From positions 1 through 64,000 of the forward strand of contig JAIOZA010000004.1 of the NCBI GenBank assembly GCA_021740825.1: a stretch of 64,000 nt of DNA, given 5' to 3'. Positions 44,638 through 64,000 of the stretch are shown in pieces. Within the stretch, counting starts at the first letter, position 1; each line of letters opens with the position of its first letter. A model generated the notes under the pieces. It had not been told where the DNA came from. It searched no databases and saw only the letters and a program-made list of their open reading frames with translations. Origin of the DNA: Bacteroidia bacterium. GTDB taxonomy: Bacteria; Bacteroidota; Bacteroidia; B-17B0; Aurantibacillaceae. The translations under genes were made by a program, and so were the position numbers.

Positions 44638-45188
44638 TATTTTAATATTACTTTTAATTATTATATAAACCTTTTTAGCTTTGTTTAATAAAACAATATA
44701 TATTATAAATACAACTTTTGTTCATACTTTATAATACACGTTAATTAACACTCATAAAAATATAGATTGATAATAAGTGTTTTAAATACAGTACGAATTA
44801 ACAAAATTACTGTGTATAAATAAATTTAACGTTAATAAGTTTATATAATTAATTTATGATTTATTAATAGCTAATTTACATAGTTTATTTTTTATTGTTA
44901 CAAAATTTACTTTCAAAAACTATTAGTTAGTTTATAAAGTTTTATTCACAATAATTTAAAGTCAAAATTAATTTACTTTTAAACTATTTTTGTAGGTAGC
45001 TTATTTGTTAATTACTACTCACTCATTTAAAAACCAAGTAATTAAGACTTATAATAGTGTTTAATAATTGTTAATAGACTATAATATACTATAAAAGCTA
45101 GTAAACAAAAGCTTATTTTTACACAGTACTAACAGCTTATATACTATAACCATAATTTTAAAATTTTAAAAATTATTATATTATTATA
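44638..45188. other. Candidate chromosomal replication origin (AT-rich, DnaA-box-like sites)
   Basis: This 551-bp non-coding gap between divergent rpiB and nadA is the most AT-rich long stretch of the window. It contains TGTGTATAA (44811-44819, i.e. TTATACACA on the minus strand) and TTATTCACA (44942-44950), both exact TTATNCACA DnaA-box matches. TTTTACACA (45117-45125) has one mismatch. An almost pure A/T stretch (about 45151-45188) could be the unwinding region. Five parS sites lie 7.4-8.9 kb to the right. Origin function is inferred, and dnaA is not in the window. A long nadA leader is the simpler alternative. Confidence 0.5.
44985..44992 (+). promoter_or_regulatory. Possible -7 box for nadA
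   Basis: TATTTTTG matches TAnnTTTG but is about 196 bp before the nadA ATG, which would give a long leader. In such AT-rich DNA a chance match is possible. Confidence 0.3.
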
Positions 45189-50654: not shown

Positions 50655-52550
50655 ATGTCTTCACAATATGATATTATAGTAGTTGGTGCTGGCCACGCAG
50701 GTTGCGAGGCCGCTGCAGCAGCTGCAAATATGGGTTCCAAGGTATTATTATTGACTATGAACATGCAAACCATTGCTCAAATGAGCTGTAATCCAGCCAT
50801 GGGTGGTATTGCAAAAGGACAAATTGTTCGTGAGATTGATGCTTTGGGTGGTTATAGCGGAATTGTTTCTGATAAGTCTGCTATCCAATTCAGAATGTTG
50901 AATCGTTCAAAAGGACCTGCGATGTGGAGTCCAAGAACACAAAATGACAGAATGTTATTTGCCCAAACCTGGAGAGAAATGTTAGAGCAAACGCCTAATG
51001 TTGATTTCTGGCAAGACATGTGTCGCGAATTAATTGTTTCTAAAGACGGTAAACATGTTGAAGGTGTTATTACAGGAATGGGCTTAGAATTTAAAGCTAA
51101 AGCCGTTGTATTAACTAATGGAACATTCTTAAACGGATTAATCCACTTAGGAGAAAAACAAATTGGTGGAGGTCGTAGCGGCGAATCTGCTTCATACGGA
51201 ATTACCGAACAATTACTGAAATTAGGTTTCGAAAATGGTAGAATGAAAACCGGAACACCTCCTCGAATTGATGGACGCTCTTTAGATTATTCTAAAATGG
51301 AAGAGCAAGAAGGTGATGTGGCCATTGATAAATTCTCTTATTTAGATAACACCTCTCCGTTTATTTCAAATGACGGACGTCCAGTAAAAAAACAAGTTCC
51401 TTGTCATATTACTTATACTAACCAGGACGTTCATGATATATTAAGAACTGGTTTCGAAAAATCACCAATGTACTCAGGACGCATTCAAGGTTTAGGTCCG
51501 AGATATTGTCCAAGTATTGAAGATAAAATTACACGTTTCTCGGAGCGCGATAGGCATCAATTATTTGTAGAACCAGAAGGCTGGGATACGGTTGAAATTT
51601 ATGTGAATGGATTTTCAACATCTCTCCCAGTTGAAGTTCAACAAAAAGCATTAAAATTAATTCCTGGTTTTGAGAACGCTAAAATGTTCCGCCCAGGTTA
51701 TGCTATAGAGTACGATTATTTTCCACCTACTCAATTACAATTAACTTTGGAAACGAAGTTAGTGGAAGGCTTATATTTTGCAGGTCAGATTAATGGAACA
51801 ACAGGTTATGAAGAAGCAGCATGTCAAGGTCAAATGGCAGGTATTAATGCACATTTAAAAATCAACGAAAAAGACCCATTAATTTTAAAACGTCACGAAG
51901 CATACATTGGAGTTTTAATAGATGATTTAGTAACTAAAGGAACGGACGAACCTTATCGTATGTTTACCTCTCGTTCAGAGTATCGTTTACTATTACGCCA
52001 AGATAATGCTGATGTTCGTTTAACACCTCTATCCCACTCTATAGGTTTAGCAAGCGACGAGAGAATGAATCGTGTTTCGGATAAGATTAAAAACTATGAA
52101 AACCTAATTAAGTACTTTAAGAATACAAGTGCCGAACCAGAAGAAGCTAATGCTTATTTGGAGAGCATTAACTCTGCGCCTTTAGCACAAAAAATTAGGT
52201 ACTTCAATGTGTTGTCTCGCCCTGATGTTTCCATTATTGATTTAGCTAAGAATTGCACAGATTTAAAAACCACCGTTGCTGGTATGGATGCTGACACCAT
52301 GATGCAAGCAGAGATTTTAATGAAGTACGAGGGCTATATTGAGAGAGAAAAAGAAAATGCAGAAAAGGTTGCGAAACTAGATAACTATAAAATTAAACCA
52401 GACTTTGATTTTAAGGCAGTGGCTAGTCTGTCTTTAGAAGCTAAAGATAAATGGACAAAATTACGCCCAACAACTATTGGTCAGGCTAGTCGAATTTCAG
52501 GAATTAACCCAGCTGATATTTCTGTTTTGTTAGTGCACCTGGGCAGATAA
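50655..52550 (+). CDS. mnmG: tRNA uridine-5-carboxymethylaminomethyl modification enzyme MnmG (GidA)
   Basis: The 631-residue FAD protein has [56 protein letters not shown] and a C-terminal [20 protein letters not shown]. With MnmE it modifies wobble uridine 34 of several tRNAs. mnmG (gidA) is often close to the chromosome origin, which fits the parS sites directly downstream. The start is the ATG at 50655. Confidence 0.98.
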
Positions 52551-52557
52551 AAATAAA

Positions 52558-52573
52558 CGTTCCACGTGGAACA
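52558..52573. promoter_or_regulatory. parS-like ParB-binding site 1
   Basis: CGTTCCACGTGGAACA contains the perfect 14-bp palindrome GTTCCACGTGGAAC and matches the parS consensus TGTTNCACGTGAAACA with variation in the symmetric positions. It lies 8 bp after mnmG and overlaps a GTG that is not the likely start of the next gene. Confidence 0.8.
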
Positions 52574-52586
52574 ACTAGAATTAAAT

Positions 52587-53471
52587 ATGTTAACTATAGA
52601 AAAATGTTTAGTGTGTGGCTCAAATCAGTTTGAGCCTTTTTTAGTTTGTAAAGACCATACAGTAAGTAAGGATGATTTTAATATTGTTTCCTGTAAGATG
52701 TGTGGATTTAAATTTACAAATCCTCGTCCTACAGATTTAGTGTTAGGGGATTATTATAAAGCTGAGGAGTATGTTTCTCATACTAATACTAAAAAAGGAA
52801 TTATAAACAAGCTATATCATATTGTAAGAAATCATACTCTTAAGAAGAAGATTCAATTGGTTTCTTCTTATGTTTCACGTGGAACTATTTTAGATTACGG
52901 TTGTGGGACAGGAATGTTTTTAGCGGCTTGTAAAGACGCCGGTTGGAGTACTATTGGAATGGAGCCAGATGATAGCGCTAGAAAAATTGCTTCAGACCAA
53001 GACTTAAGTGTGTATTCAAATAAGGATAATGTTACTACTTATATAAAAGAAAAACAAGTTGATGCTATTACATTGTGGCATGTATTAGAACATGTAACAG
53101 ATATGCCTGAGACTTTAGCGTTCTTTAAAGCTAAACTTAAAAAGGATGGCGTTTTAATTGTTGCTGTTCCTAATCATGTTTCTTATGACGCACAATATTA
53201 TAAAGAGTTTTGGGCAGCTTATGATGTGCCTCGCCACCTTCATCATTTCGATTTAAAATCTATGAAAGCTTTGCTGCAAAACGACGGATTCAAATTAGTT
53301 GAGACTAAGCCAATGAAGTTTGATAGTTTCTATGTATCTATGCTTAGTGAGAAATGTAAAACTGGCTCTGTGAATTTAGTCAAAGCGTTTTGGATAGGAT
53401 TAATATCTAACTTTAAAGCCAAAGATTCTAGTTCCTACTCTAGTACTATTTATGTATTTAAACACGCATAA
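52587..53471 (+). CDS. Class I SAM-dependent methyltransferase with N-terminal Cys motif
   Basis: I use ATG 52587 (MLTIEKCLVCGSN), giving 294 residues. The upstream GTG at 52566 lies inside parS site 1 and is rejected. The N-terminus has CLVCG and CKMCGFKF, a putative zinc ribbon, and then a methyltransferase domain begins with ILDYGCGTGMFL near residue 105. The later WHVLEHVTDMPETL and PRHLHHFDLKSM match ubiE/3-demethylubiquinone-type or sugar methyltransferases. The substrate is unknown. parS site 2 is embedded in codons YVSRGTI. Confidence 0.85.
   Translation: MLTIEKCLVCGSNQFEPFLVCKDHTVSKDDFNIVSCKMCGFKFTNPRPTDLVLGDYYKAEEYVSHTNTKKGIINKLYHIVRNHTLKKKIQLVSSYVSRGTILDYGCGTGMFLAACKDAGWSTIGMEPDDSARKIASDQDLSVYSNKDNVTTYIKEKQVDAITLWHVLEHVTDMPETLAFFKAKLKKDGVLIVAVPNHVSYDAQYYKEFWAAYDVPRHLHHFDLKSMKALLQNDGFKLVETKPMKFDSFYVSMLSEKCKTGSVNLVKAFWIGLISNFKAKDSSSYSSTIYVFKHA
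52871..52886. promoter_or_regulatory. parS-like ParB-binding site 2 (inside a gene)
   Basis: TGTTTCACGTGGAACT matches the parS consensus with one or two substitutions. It is inside the methyltransferase gene and is read as V-S-R-G-T. Confidence 0.75.
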
Positions 53472-53486
53472 GTTTCACGTGAAACA
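53471..53486. promoter_or_regulatory. parS-like ParB-binding site 3
   Basis: AGTTTCACGTGAAACA contains the perfect palindrome GTTTCACGTGAAAC, identical to the classical parS core. It starts at the last base of the methyltransferase stop codon. Confidence 0.85.
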
Positions 53487-53490
53487 TAAT

Positions 53491-53523
53491 AGCCCTAGTA
53501 GACAATTCTATTGGGGCTTTTTT
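53491..53523 (+). terminator. Intrinsic terminator
   Basis: A 12-bp stem (53491-53502 with 53507-53518, two G-T pairs) with a 4-nt loop and a T-run. It closes the mnmG-methyltransferase transcript. Confidence 0.8.
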
Positions 53524-53579
53524 ATTTATACTTGTTCATTATCCTCTTTGAGTTAAAGGGAGTGTTTTATGTATACTTA

Positions 53580-53603
53580 ATCCTGTTCCACGTGGAACAG
53601 GAT
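53580..53603. promoter_or_regulatory. parS-like ParB-binding site 4 (extended palindrome)
   Basis: The core TGTTCCACGTGGAACA (53584-53599) is a perfect palindrome. Symmetry extends outward for four more bases on each side (53580-53603), making this the longest and most symmetric of the five sites. Confidence 0.85.
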
Positions 53604-54023
53604 ACTTTATGTATAACTTTAAACCGGAGAAGATCTTTTACTCTTAACTCCTTTTTGGTTTCCATTGGATTATTACTATTAAACTCCATTGGGTTTTAAT
53701 AGCCACTAATCAATCTCTCCCTTTTATTAGTGTGCTTTCCATGTTCGTGTTGAATGCGAAGGCTGTAAACAAAAACGTATAAGGTATTCCAATGGCGTTC
53801 AAAAGATAAACCAATAAACTTCTTACAGGGATTGTTTCAAATATCTAAAGTCTTTATTTTTTATGGGCTACTAACTTTTGTGAGTTTTAGTATGTTTTAT
53901 GATTTGTTTCCAAAAGCATATTTCCTTTTAAACCTCAATTGTTTTTGAATGTAAATGAGTTAAATTATTTGCATTAGACTTTATTTTCTATCACAATTCT
54001 TATAATGCAGAATGAGAGTTTTT
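53604..54023. other. Gene-poor stretch between parS sites 4 and 5
   Basis: About 420 bp with no convincing ORF, RNA gene or repeat. A 62-codon hydrophobic frame (53511-53699) reaches into it but looks like chance. The whole 53472-54116 gap is unusually long for this window and is bracketed by parS-like sites. Confidence 0.5.
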
Positions 54024-54039
54024 AGTTCCACGTGAAACC
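54024..54039. promoter_or_regulatory. parS-like ParB-binding site 5
   Basis: AGTTCCACGTGAAACC has the GTTnCACGTGnAAC core, with one half TTCC and the other AAAC. It is the rightmost of the cluster. Confidence 0.75.
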
Positions 54040-54066
54040 ATTTCGTTTACGTATTAATGGAAACAT

Positions 54067-54097
54067 AAAAGCCCCTCCAATTTGGAGAGATTTTTTA
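54067..54097 (-). terminator. Intrinsic terminator of the SDR gene
   Basis: The hairpin centres on CTCCAATTTGGAG (54074-54086), with further G-C and G-T pairs outside, and gives a U-run on the minus strand. It ends the minus-strand SDR transcript. Confidence 0.7.
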
Positions 54098-54116
54098 AGA
54101 TTGATGTAATCTATCT

Positions 54117-59848: not shown

Positions 59849-62800
59849 TTATTTTCCTTTAAACACGGTGACAAAACCATTATATTTTTTATCATCAGGA
59901 ACTTCTACAATATAAAAGAATGTACCATCAGAAACACCTTCAGCCTTCCATTCATTTTTATAGTTTGGATTTTCATAAATTTTCTTGCCCCATCTATCAT
60001 AAATAGTAACAATTGTATTCGGATGATATTCTATGTTTTTTATCACAAAAAACTCATTTGCATTATCCCCGTTAGGTGTAATAACATTTGGTATAACAAC
60101 TTGGCATGGAGGTAATACAGTTATAAGTTGTATATCAGTTTGTTCATAACCACAACTATCAGTAACTGTAATTGCAATTGGATAAGCGCCTTCAAATTCA
60201 GGCGTAATAGAATTTAGAACAGTGGTATTTGAAATACTATTTGAACTAGGATAGTTGTACCAATTGTAAGTAAAATTAGGATAACCCCCGGTTACAGAAG
60301 CGTTTAATGTAAACGGCGTATTTCCGCATAAAGCAACAGAATCAATGATAGCTACATTTAAGGTGTTTGGCAATACAACAATAACATTACTAGCAGTATT
60401 TTGGTAACCACAACTGTCAGTTACCGTCAAACCAACATTGTAATTTCCTCCAGAAGCAGGTGCGTTGTTAATATAATCAGCAATAGTAGAAACCGTTGCA
60501 GAGTTCAGTGTCCAAACATAATTATAAGAGGGATATCCTCCATTAACAATTGAATTGAATGTAAATGGTGTATTAGGACAAACAACTATAGAATTACTAA
60601 TGGCAGCAGTTAAATTATTAACAAAATTATTTACAACAACAGTGTCAGATATTGGATAGGCACAAATACCACTTACAGTAACAACTAAAGTTGTTGTTGA
60701 ATTTGAATTTGTAGTGTAGCTTGAACTATTTGTTGCCCCAACAGCTGGGATGTTTCCAGGTAAAGTCGTCCAAGAATAGGTATACGGAGTTCCTTGGTTA
60801 CCCGGAGGAAGTATTGATGAACCAGCTGCAGTATTAAAGGTAAACGGTTTATTTAAACACTTTGTAACGTCTGGTAAAGGTGTAACAAGTAAGTTTGCTT
60901 TTGGTGTTACATTAACCGTTATGGTTTTGGTATCAGGTGTGCTACTTGGGCAAGGGGCGTAGCCAGTTACTACATAGGTATTTATACCAACAATAGGAGG
61001 CACTACAGTAATTGCTGTTGCTGTTGAAATAGGAATTAATGACCCACCTTGTAAATAAGACCAATTGTAATTAAAAGCGCCAAGGGCCGACATTGATGTA
61101 TTATCTCCTTCGCATAAAGTAGTATTTGTAACCGCGGCGGTAATAATAGTAGCTAGAGGAGGAAATAATACAGCAACAGTTTTAGTTGCTACACAACCAC
61201 CAACGGGATTAATTACTGATATAGTATAAGTTACGTTTCCTGCTAATGGAGGTGCAGAAAAAGTCGGTGCAACCCTAATAGAATCGTTATCGAAATTAGC
61301 TGTAATAGTGCCATTTGGAGATACAGAAACAGTATAACTTGCAGGATTAGTTGCACCACAGTTTCCGAATTTTACGTTTGGTCTATTACTTGAAGTCGTG
61401 GCGACATTTGTTGTCATGCACGCTACAATTCCATCGCTAATATAATATCTTACTGAAGGAAAAGTGGTAAGCGTATAAGGCATAGAAGAATTATTAGTCC
61501 AAGAAGGGTTTGTAATACTATTGCAAACATCAATTAATATATTTGACACACCATCCCATTCATAAGCGTTTGGAAAATTATATGTATTCCAGCCTGAGGT
61601 AATATTTGCTGTGGGCGCGTAATAAACTTGAATTAATCCAGTGTTATCAAATGTTGTTGATGTTAAATCTGCTGCAGTTGTACATTTCATTTTTATTGTA
61701 AAATCGGGGTAAGCAGTAATACCATTTATTGTTGTAACATTAAATGCTATACTTGAAATTTTTCCTGCTTGAACTCCCGCCGCTAATAATTCTGAAGCCT
61801 TGTATAAAATTTGATGCCTTGTGTTTCTAAAAAAATTACCATAAATCGCGGGGTAACCTGTACTTGAATTAACTAAGGTTCCATTTCCAATTTGAACGCT
61901 ATTAGGTGTTGAGCAAGAGCCAGAAGATGACAAACCGCAAGATGAAGGCGCAACTTCACCAAAATCTAAATTTAAAGTAACGGCATCCGGAAAACACAAG
62001 ACTGTGTTAGTAGGTGTAATTGTAAAATTTGTTTGAATAACGCCTATTGTGACTGTATTATTATAAATACAAACACCATCAGTAATAATGGCGGTGTAAG
62101 TTCCAGGCGCAAGTGGCGCAAGTGCAATAGTGGTAGTACTAGTGGTTGTATTAGTAACCGTATTTGCTGCTGTTGGACCAGTAATATTATAACTATATGG
62201 CGCTGAAAATGGCGTAGTTAAGTTTAACAAAGTTGAACCATTTACATCATTAGGACAAACGTTTGTAGTATTAGAAAAATAAGCATTCCCTCCAGCTACT
62301 AGTCCTAATGTATATTTTATTGAATCTCGGCAACCTTGAGGATTTTCATAAACAACCGAGTAAATATCACCATCCACAGCTGGCGTAATATAAAGTGTGT
62401 CATTTGTTCCAATAGGTGCGGGTATTAGTGTTGTTCCTTGATACCAAGTATAATTAGACCCTCCCGGAAGCGCAATGGAAGTAGAGTTACCACAAAAAGG
62501 TTTGTTTTGACTTATAAAGAATGGGGGAGATACGCCAACCGATAGATTAGCCGAAGCTTGCCCGCAGGTTGTAGACGACACCAATACACTATAAGTACCC
62601 GGCGATAGTCCTGTGGCCGTTTGAGATGTACTGACTATGTTACCATTAGTTGACCCCGAGGTACTCGTCCACTGATATGTATATATTCCATTGCTTCCGT
62701 TAGCTTGAACATAAGCCGTTCCTGAATTACCATTAGCACATGAACTAGTCGAATTTAAATTGATAATATTTACAATTGTATTTGGCGGAATAGTCACCGT

Positions 62801-64000
62801 TTGTGAGAGAACGCAACCTCCTGGAGAAATCATACTAACAGTATAAGTTGAACCAGCAACTGGTGTAGCAACCTGCAAAGTATCATTAACAGCACCTGAA
62901 ATTAACCCTCCCGGACCAGTCCATTGATAAGAATTAAATCCTGTTGGCGCTACTAAAGTTGCATAAGAGGTTCCAGAACACCAATTTGCATAAGGGGTTC
63001 CTAATCCGCCACATTCAGCGTCAACGTATGCATAACCCCAATGCCCACTTAATGAACATCCGCCAACCTCAAAATTGATAGAAACATTTGTACCTAAAGG
63101 TAAAGTTGACAAGTCTACAGAATAATATTGCCATTTTCTATAAAAAGTTGGATCAAAGGTGCTGCCTATGGCAGATTGAAATAATGAATCTGAAGCAAGA
63201 GTGGACTTTGGATTAAAAGTATAAGAAGTACAACCTGGTAAAATAGCCCCAGTTGTCTCATTTCTAATCTCAACTTTAAAATAAGGAGATTCGCCCGCTG
63301 AGTGGCCTGATGGGTTTTGTAAAACTACAGCGTAGCTGAATGATAATCGTTGATTGATTGAAGAAGATGTTGTTATGTATTTTAATCTACAAGCTCTTGC
63401 GTTTGCAACAGATCCATTCATCCTCACAGAAACTGGATCAAAGCTAAAAGGGCTCACAAATGGAATTTGAGAAATTGTTTGCGAACCAACCGCTTTGCAA
63501 GCTAAAGAGTCGTATCCATCAATTACTTGATAAATTGGATTAACGGGTGGTAACGACATAATAGTATGGTAATTTGTTGTATTAAGCACCGAAACATTAT
63601 TTCCCGCACCGTTTAAAATTGCGGTACCGGCAACCCCATAATTAGGCACTGTTCCGCCTGTTGAAGTTGTTCCTGAGCCACCAGACCATCCATTAAAGTT
63701 ATATTGTTCAAAACCCATATTAGGGCAACCTAAACTCATTGGTTTATTTGGCTCTAAATATATCACCGTTTCACTTTCGCCAGGAGTTCCCGCCGCCTCA
63801 TATGGCGAATGAATATGCCCTTGTTTTTTTAATGCCTTTTTCGATGAAAAATCATTTTTTAAAAATTCAACGTAACCATTAATTTCACTTGCTTTTATTC
63901 CTTTAGCTTTAGCTGTGTTAATAGCCGCTTTCTCATCGAAAACATTAGGATCATGTTTTTTTATTTCTTTAGTTTGAGCTACTAATACTTGCGTGTAAGT
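59849..64000 (-). CDS. Very large T9SS cargo protein (type B CTD), 5' end outside the window
   Basis: The frame is open for 1383 codons up to the window edge. The GTG at 63766 is internal: the next 78 codons upstream are open with no stop, so the start lies beyond 64000. The protein has repeated Ig/PKD-like modules of the kind GYPSYNYVWTLNSATVST and GGYPNFTYNWYNYPSSNS, and a middle jelly-roll-like part (about codon 650-900 of the visible part). The C-terminal T9SS type B domain (ITPNGDNANEFFV, TIYDRWGKKIYENP) completes it. It is probably a surface adhesin or matrix protein. The N-terminal region seen is helical (NVFDEKAAINTAKAKGIKAS). Confidence 0.9.
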   Translation of the reverse strand, partial: TYTQVLVAQTKEIKKHDPNVFDEKAAINTAKAKGIKASEINGYVEFLKNDFSSKKALKKQGHIHSPYEAAGTPGESETVIYLEPNKPMSLGCPNMGFEQYNFNGWSGGSGTTSTGGTVPNYGVAGTAILNGAGNNVSVLNTTNYHTIMSLPPVNPIYQVIDGYDSLACKAVGSQTISQIPFVSPFSFDPVSVRMNGSVANARACRLKYITTSSSINQRLSFSYAVVLQNPSGHSAGESPYFKVEIRNETTGAILPGCTSYTFNPKSTLASDSLFQSAIGSTFDPTFYRKWQYYSVDLSTLPLGTNVSINFEVGGCSLSGHWGYAYVDAECGGLGTPYANWCSGTSYATLVAPTGFNSYQWTGPGGLISGAVNDTLQVATPVAGSTYTVSMISPGGCVLSQTVTIPPNTIVNIINLNSTSSCANGNSGTAYVQANGSNGIYTYQWTSTSGSTNGNIVSTSQTATGLSPGTYSVLVSSTTCGQASANLSVGVSPPFFISQNKPFCGNSTSIALPGGSNYTWYQGTTLIPAPIGTNDTLYITPAVDGDIYSVVYENPQGCRDSIKYTLGLVAGGNAYFSNTTNVCPNDVNGSTLLNLTTPFSAPYSYNITGPTAANTVTNTTTSTTTIALAPLAPGTYTAIITDGVCIYNNTVTIGVIQTNFTITPTNTVLCFPDAVTLNLDFGEVAPSSCGLSSSGSCSTPNSVQIGNGTLVNSSTGYPAIYGNFFRNTRHQILYKASELLAAGVQAGKISSIAFNVTTINGITAYPDFTIKMKCTTAADLTSTTFDNTGLIQVYYAPTANITSGWNTYNFPNAYEWDGVSNILIDVCNSITNPSWTNNSSMPYTLTTFPSVRYYISDGIVACMTTNVATTSSNRPNVKFGNCGATNPASYTVSVSPNGTITANFDNDSIRVAPTFSAPPLAGNVTYTISVINPVGGCVATKTVAVLFPPLATIITAAVTNTTLCEGDNTSMSALGAFNYNWSYLQGGSLIPISTATAITVVPPIVGINTYVVTGYAPCPSSTPDTKTITVNVTPKANLLVTPLPDVTKCLNKPFTFNTAAGSSILPPGNQGTPYTYSWTTLPGNIPAVGATNSSSYTTNSNSTTTLVVTVSGICAYPISDTVVVNNFVNNLTAAISNSIVVCPNTPFTFNSIVNGGYPSYNYVWTLNSATVSTIADYINNAPASGGNYNVGLTVTDSCGYQNTASNVIVVLPNTLNVAIIDSVALCGNTPFTLNASVTGGYPNFTYNWYNYPSSNSISNTTVLNSITPEFEGAYPIAITVTDSCGYEQTDIQLITVLPPCQVVIPNVITPNGDNANEFFVIKNIEYHPNTIVTIYDRWGKKIYENPNYKNEWKAEGVSDGTFFYIVEVPDDKKYNGFVTVFKGK

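Follow-up and report, generated by a model that had tools for sequence, protein, structure and literature searches.

The five parS-like sites that lie downstream of mnmG in this stretch of DNA very probably form the parS centromere of the chromosome in a Bacteroidota species, and each is a putative binding site of ParB. This reading is supported by the sites themselves, the lack of any further exact copy in the draft genome, their conservation among relatives, the presence of parA and parB elsewhere in the genome, and a codon-level constraint on the site that is embedded in a gene; all of this support is sequence-based. The system is an ordinary ParABS, a type that is already known. Two features raise it a little above the ordinary. 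First, the centromere is anchored at mnmG across samples of the phylum, away from parAB and dnaA. Second, it occurs in coding sequence, at places that depend on the lineage.

The parS-like sites and the partition genes

The analysed stretch, here called the window, comprises the first 64,000 nucleotides of contig JAIOZA010000004.1. The exact 14-mer GTTYCACGTGRAAC occurred five times within 1.5 kb downstream of mnmG, with starts at 52559, 52872, 53472, 53585 and 54025. These are the five sites of the original prediction, whose starts (52558, 52871, 53471, 53584 and 54024) refer to the 16-bp footprint, so that the 14-mers begin one base higher. The prediction had noticed no such site elsewhere in the window, and we likewise found no further match at zero or one mismatch and three at two mismatches. 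In shuffled versions of the window, matches with at most two mismatches averaged 0.38 with a maximum of 2, and 0 of 100 shuffles reached 8. The features of the cluster are as follows.

mnmG (gidA), 50655..52550, + strand: TIGR00136, 838.6 bits; flanked by parS in most related genomes examined
parS site 1 (putative), 52558..52573, unstranded: exact 14-mer GTTCCACGTGGAAC; 11 bp past the last sense codon of mnmG
Methyltransferase gene, 52587..53471, + strand: class I SAM-dependent, PF13489, 100.4 bits; homologues align from ATG 52587; carrier of site 2
parS site 2 (putative), 52871..52886, + strand: exact 14-mer; spans codons 96-100 (V S R G T) of the methyltransferase CDS
parS site 3 (putative), 53471..53486, unstranded: core GTTTCACGTGAAAC; begins directly 3' of the methyltransferase stop codon
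parS site 4 (putative), 53580..53603, unstranded: perfect 24-bp palindrome around its 16-mer, TGTTCCACGTGGAACA
parS site 5 (putative), 54024..54039, unstranded: exact 14-mer; between the methyltransferase gene and a short-chain dehydrogenase gene

The finer claims about these sites also held. Site 3 has the classical core, the palindrome at site 4 is perfect over all 24 bp, and the site said to lie within a coding sequence is site 2, in the methyltransferase ORF. The GTG that had been called a false start is at position 52566, inside site 1, and the homologous proteins align from the ATG downstream of it. Sites 2 and 5 fall short of a palindrome by a single asymmetric pair each. No ORF longer than 62 aa overlapped positions 53475-54110, and no Rfam match was found within the window. 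Further along the window, a 1305-aa ORF (59849-63766) encodes a very long protein with repeated segments, the end of which presumably looks like a sorting domain of the gliding or type IX secretion kind.

The draft genome comprises 2,946,009 bases in 58 contigs and is 87.6% complete. A whole-genome scan for the consensus, the check proposed with the original prediction, returned five exact places, all of them in the cluster in the window, and none for the reversed pattern. The sites are thus few, clustered and not dispersed, with 5 of 5 exact sites in 1.5 kb of 2.95 Mb. Equally good sites spread over the genome had been named as evidence against a centromere; the draft contained no further exact site. 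We also considered degenerate sites elsewhere in the genome and rejected them. At up to two mismatches there were 28 places (5 exact, 0 with one mismatch and 23 with two) versus 25 for the reversed control, so the remaining inexact matches are background. Given the 58 contigs and the incomplete assembly, some sites or a second ParB may have been missed.

A genome lacking a ParB homologue had likewise been named as contrary evidence, and one homologue was found. A single gene with a ParB_N match (C6:49435-49713) encodes a 295-aa product with ParB_N (116.8 bits) and HTH_ParB (121.1 bits) domains and the motifs GERRFRA and ENIQRED. By its sequence this is a canonical, Spo0J-like ParB, with a predicted CTPase-type N domain and an HTH. 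Its best matches among solved structures were ParB and Spo0J chains (166-169 bits), followed by Noc chains (161-163 bits). The Noc chains score nearly as high as the ParB chains, and the assignment as ParB therefore depends on the HTH residues together with the sequence of the sites. Identity with Noc, the nucleoid occlusion protein of NBS sites, is not supported by the recognition residues: in the alignment to Noc chain 7ng0, the protein has R and G in place of Noc's Q and R. We take these two to be among the positions that determine specificity for parS versus NBS.

The parA gene (AAA_31, 219.1 bits) adjoins parB (locus L006). The original prediction had placed parAB outside the window, and both genes are indeed on contig C6; summing the distances to the nearest contig ends puts them at least about 100 kb away from parS. 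The dnaA gene is on contig C5 (214 bits), with a second, weaker Bac_DnaA match (44 bits) on C24. Therefore, parS, parAB and dnaA are on three separate contigs.

Placement beside mnmG and inside coding sequences

Two samples of 60 genomes each, both including our own, were searched for exact sites. The first covered the genus, family and class, and 57 of its 60 genomes carried exact sites (none in G030, G036 and G046). The distance to mnmG was determined for the 56 genomes with listed site places; G052 has sites and was left out, and two sites of G018 were taken from L150. The nearest site was at most 5 kb from mnmG in 53 of the 56 and at most 100 bp in 46. Two of the 53 close cases use mnmG fragments (G034, and G049 with a 22-residue match, E 6e-4). 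The exceptions were G041 and G051, in which mnmG is on another contig, and G043, at 88 kb. Counted individually, 149 of the 154 sites entered were within 5 kb of mnmG, or 149 of 157 once three sites on other contigs (two of G010 and one of G059) are included.

The second sample was phylum-wide and shared G050, G055 and G057 with the first. Sites were again present in 57 of 60 genomes (no exact site in G090, G103 and G110). In 27 of the 29 loci drawn from this sample (L236-L264, one site each), mnmG adjoined the site, even where MnmG identity had fallen to 48%. The original prediction of a probable chromosome centromere is supported by the lack of other exact sites in the draft genome, the one canonical ParB with parA beside it, and the recurrence of the cluster beside mnmG in these phylum loci and in most of the genomes examined from the genus, the family and the class.

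In addition, we examined named mnmG loci, taking the best 80 of 588 by MnmG similarity, a set that is biased to closer relatives for this reason. Exact sites were found in 53 of the 80: downstream of mnmG, upstream of it or both, and in two loci inside the gene. A spacing of 2 to 14 bp between the end of the mnmG match and the site after it recurred, and some lineages had sites just upstream of the gene. In the other 27 loci, the locus sequence examined, in some cases with short flanks, contained no exact site; one of them, L089, had two sites with one mismatch each by mnmG. Within the locus sequence examined, 45 of the best 80 loci had a methyltransferase homologue near mnmG. In the openly licensed literature, surveyed mostly at the level of titles and abstracts, we found no description of parS next to gidA/mnmG in Bacteroidota, and we do not claim that it is unpublished.

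The mnmG anchor breaks in some genomes. In G119, G041 and G051 (identical to G116 as judged by its site coordinates), mnmG is away from the sites, which lie beside or inside the methyltransferase gene. Among 27 genomes without exact sites near mnmG, 15 of them Saprospiraceae, 21 had exact sites elsewhere and 6 had none. In 12 of the 21 (7 Saprospiraceae, one Haliscomenobacter), a site was found inside the threonine synthase gene, thrC, at the corresponding place, where it encodes STWN.

thrC with an embedded parS site (putative), L297:3949-5265 (same genome as L279): also in L265, L266, L270-L274, L277, L280, L281 and L303

These placements bear on the possibility that the sites are operators with a CACGTG core through which a transcription factor controls mnmG and the methyltransferase gene. 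The position of sites near gene ends, and just upstream of mnmG in some lineages, is what such operators would show. However, across the loci the sites are found downstream of, upstream of and inside these genes, they accompany the methyltransferase gene in genomes where mnmG has a different location (G041, G051/G116 and G119), and in 12 genomes they are within thrC. What does not vary across loci is the site sequence, the grouping in clusters and the small number of copies. Regulation of the two genes is therefore a very unlikely explanation of the sites.

Plasmids also use ParABS, and the cluster might in principle be the remnant partition locus of an integrated plasmid or another mobile element. 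Our analysis found no support for such an origin. The flanking genes include mnmG, nadA and rpiB, the layout by mnmG recurs across the class and phylum samples, and parAB is not nearby. We consider a mobile-element remnant to have almost no probability, and retain the chromosomal centromere as the explanation of the cluster.

Given that site 2 lies within the methyltransferase gene, its codons were compared in 20 genus members, our own included, all of which have the gene. An exact in-frame site at codon 96 was present in 19 of the 20, and G002 had one mismatch. The residues V, S, G and T of VSRGT were invariant in all 20 members and R in 19, a pattern that a conserved peptide alone could produce. 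However, of 62 columns with an invariant residue and at least four-fold degeneracy, V96, S97 and G99 were the only ones to use a single codon, and all three are in the site; outside it, codon identity averaged 0.43 and reached at most 0.90. The R98 codon was CGT in 19 of the 20 members. The neighbouring Thr100 used four codons, its third base, which lies beyond the 14-mer, taking all four letters. If columns are assumed to be alike and independent, the probability that the three single-codon columns fall on three named columns of the 62 is about 1 in 38,000.

The wider methyltransferase alignment had the codon-96 site in 26 of 42 rows, a count of carriers and not an independent sample. Seven rows from sister groups had a site at codon 26 instead (VSRET), and four of these had a further, out-of-frame site near codon 265. 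Enzymes without the codon-96 site departed from VSR in at least one position of codons 96-98 (for example GKQ, LKS or YKT). Since codon invariance is confined to the site and related enzymes tolerate other residues, maintenance of the embedded site is best explained by selection on the DNA, and a constraint on the VSRGT peptide itself is an extremely improbable cause. ParB needs an exact core, and selection for the centromere would thus keep codons 96-99, and all but the third base of codon 100, unchanged. In this way, the centromere may have chosen some of the amino acids of the methyltransferase.

GC skew and a candidate replication origin

GC3 skew was modelled with gene strand as a covariate on six contigs, with 300 permutations each; the permutations treat genes as independent and ignore the correlation of neighbours, and the significance values are therefore generous. 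The clearest flips were found in two relatives. On contig C1 of G026 (28 sampled stretches), the skew changed from negative to positive at 490-500 kb (0/300 permutations); parS of this genome is at 469 kb, and its dnaA lies 1.1 Mb away, at 1588 kb. On contig C2 of G057 (21 stretches), the break was at 574-579 kb and parS at 589-591 kb (0/300). In both, the flip was within 21 kb of parS. The contig of the window had its break at 21-31 kb, 22-32 kb from parS (0/300). In G043, the break at 225-230 kb fell between parS (179 kb) and mnmG (267 kb), 46-51 kb from parS (9/300). The break of G024, at 456-471 kb, coincided with parS and was not significant, as 43 of 300 permutations reached its fit. No significant break was obtained for G031 (130/300).

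According to the available part of PMC4755523, oriC of Bacteroidetes is commonly far from dnaA. The accessible text of PMC10197239 describes clustered parS in 12 mouse-gut bacteria, with origins that are not always at dnaA; there, origins were placed by skew together with parS, and read coverage was reported to agree. Because parS and skew were used jointly in that study, its support is only partly independent, though agreeing read coverage is reported.

We infer a candidate oriC in an AT-rich stretch about 7.4 kb from site 1.

Candidate oriC, 44638..45188, unstranded: AT-rich non-coding DNA between rpiB and nadA; neighbours PF02502 and PF02445

The lowest-GC 500-bp window of the contig C1 on which the cluster lies (17%) falls inside this stretch, and among 13 loci of relatives that include nadA with the region upstream of it, this stretch contained the lowest-GC window in 12 and the second lowest in 1. 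The candidate region contains three TTWTNCACA boxes, a number that none of 1000 dinucleotide shuffles attained; the comparison is post hoc, since the region was picked for boxes noticed earlier. Over the whole window the motif was no commoner than chance (10 found versus 12.70 expected), and the canonical DnaA box TTATCCACA was absent from the window. Among the 11 genus members with a full upstream region (G005 covers only 81 bp upstream of nadA), boxes recurred at about -378, -249 and -72 from nadA, with all three present in 5 members and one or two in the other 6. This conservation is better support for the candidate oriC than the shuffle figure. Outside the genus, G020 and G024 had one box each upstream of nadA, and G023, G026, G031 and G032 had none there. 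TGTTAA-like repeats in the candidate region were not above shuffles (132/1000 reach their number), so only the TTWTNCACA boxes were kept.

Partition mechanism and relation to known systems

From established ParABS biology, ParB, encoded far from the cluster, would load on the five sites as a CTP-dependent clamp and spread over mnmG and the methyltransferase gene. ParA would then pull the two copies of the origin-near region apart after replication. The origin itself is probably within tens of kb of the sites and not at dnaA, perhaps in the AT-rich stretch upstream of nadA.

The step that would usually follow loading of ParB is less certain. ScpA (PF02616) gave no match in our own genome (87.6% complete), none in the 37 genomes of its family, f1, and matches in only 4 of 60 genomes overall, in a search that found it in 9 of 14 control genomes. 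Within family f1, a ParB_N match was present in 33 and parS in 35 of the 37 genomes. The usual SMC-ScpAB loading step is therefore doubtful here and may not apply. In the available part of PMC10197239, no known condensin is reported for the two Bacteroidetes studied.

Taking these observations together, we lean slightly towards a broader reading, in which the Bacteroidota centromere is a slowly moving dual-use sequence. It would be anchored by mnmG in most of the phylum, with parAB and dnaA elsewhere, and written inside protein genes (at codon 96 or 26 of the methyltransferase, and in thrC in Saprospiraceae and similar genomes), where over long stretches of evolution it would dictate codons and probably also some of the amino acids. 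Such a centromere would work without SMC-ScpAB in much of the group, so that ParB may load another condensin or none.

Three consequences follow. First, the parS cluster, usually beside mnmG, is suggested as a marker of the origin region that needs no more than sequence, in a phylum where dnaA misleads. Second, in the embedded site the constraint that a centromere places on a protein sequence can be measured. Finally, with ParABS present in bacteria for which the search gave no ScpA, it becomes possible to ask by direct test what ParB loads in Bacteroidota.

The chromosomal ParABS systems of Bacillus subtilis and Caulobacter have a canonical ParB, a ParA and clustered sites near the origin, and the present system resembles them in these respects, its sites being probably near the origin. 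It differs from these Soj/Spo0J systems in the separation of parAB from the sites, by at least about 100 kb and on another contig, and of dnaA, on a third contig, in the position of the sites beside mnmG, and in that ScpA was not found in the genome. The parS core is the same, the consensus used in PMC10197239 being TGTTTCACGTGAAACA in the text available.

In Pseudomonas aeruginosa, as described in the accessible part of PMC4368675, parS2 and parS3 are identical to the 16-mer of site 4, and the four sites parS1-parS4 cluster near oriC, as the sites described here probably do. In contrast to the distant parAB of our genome, parAB of P. aeruginosa and its oriC are ~7 kb apart, and there are six dispersed sites that are weaker (PMC4368675), whereas our draft genome has no dispersed exact sites. 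A further parallel is with the parS clusters of mouse-gut bacteria, two of which are Bacteroidetes (PMC10197239). There, as here, the cluster is taken as a mark of the origin; the linkage to mnmG and the codon-embedded sites, which are not described in the available part of that paper, are present here.
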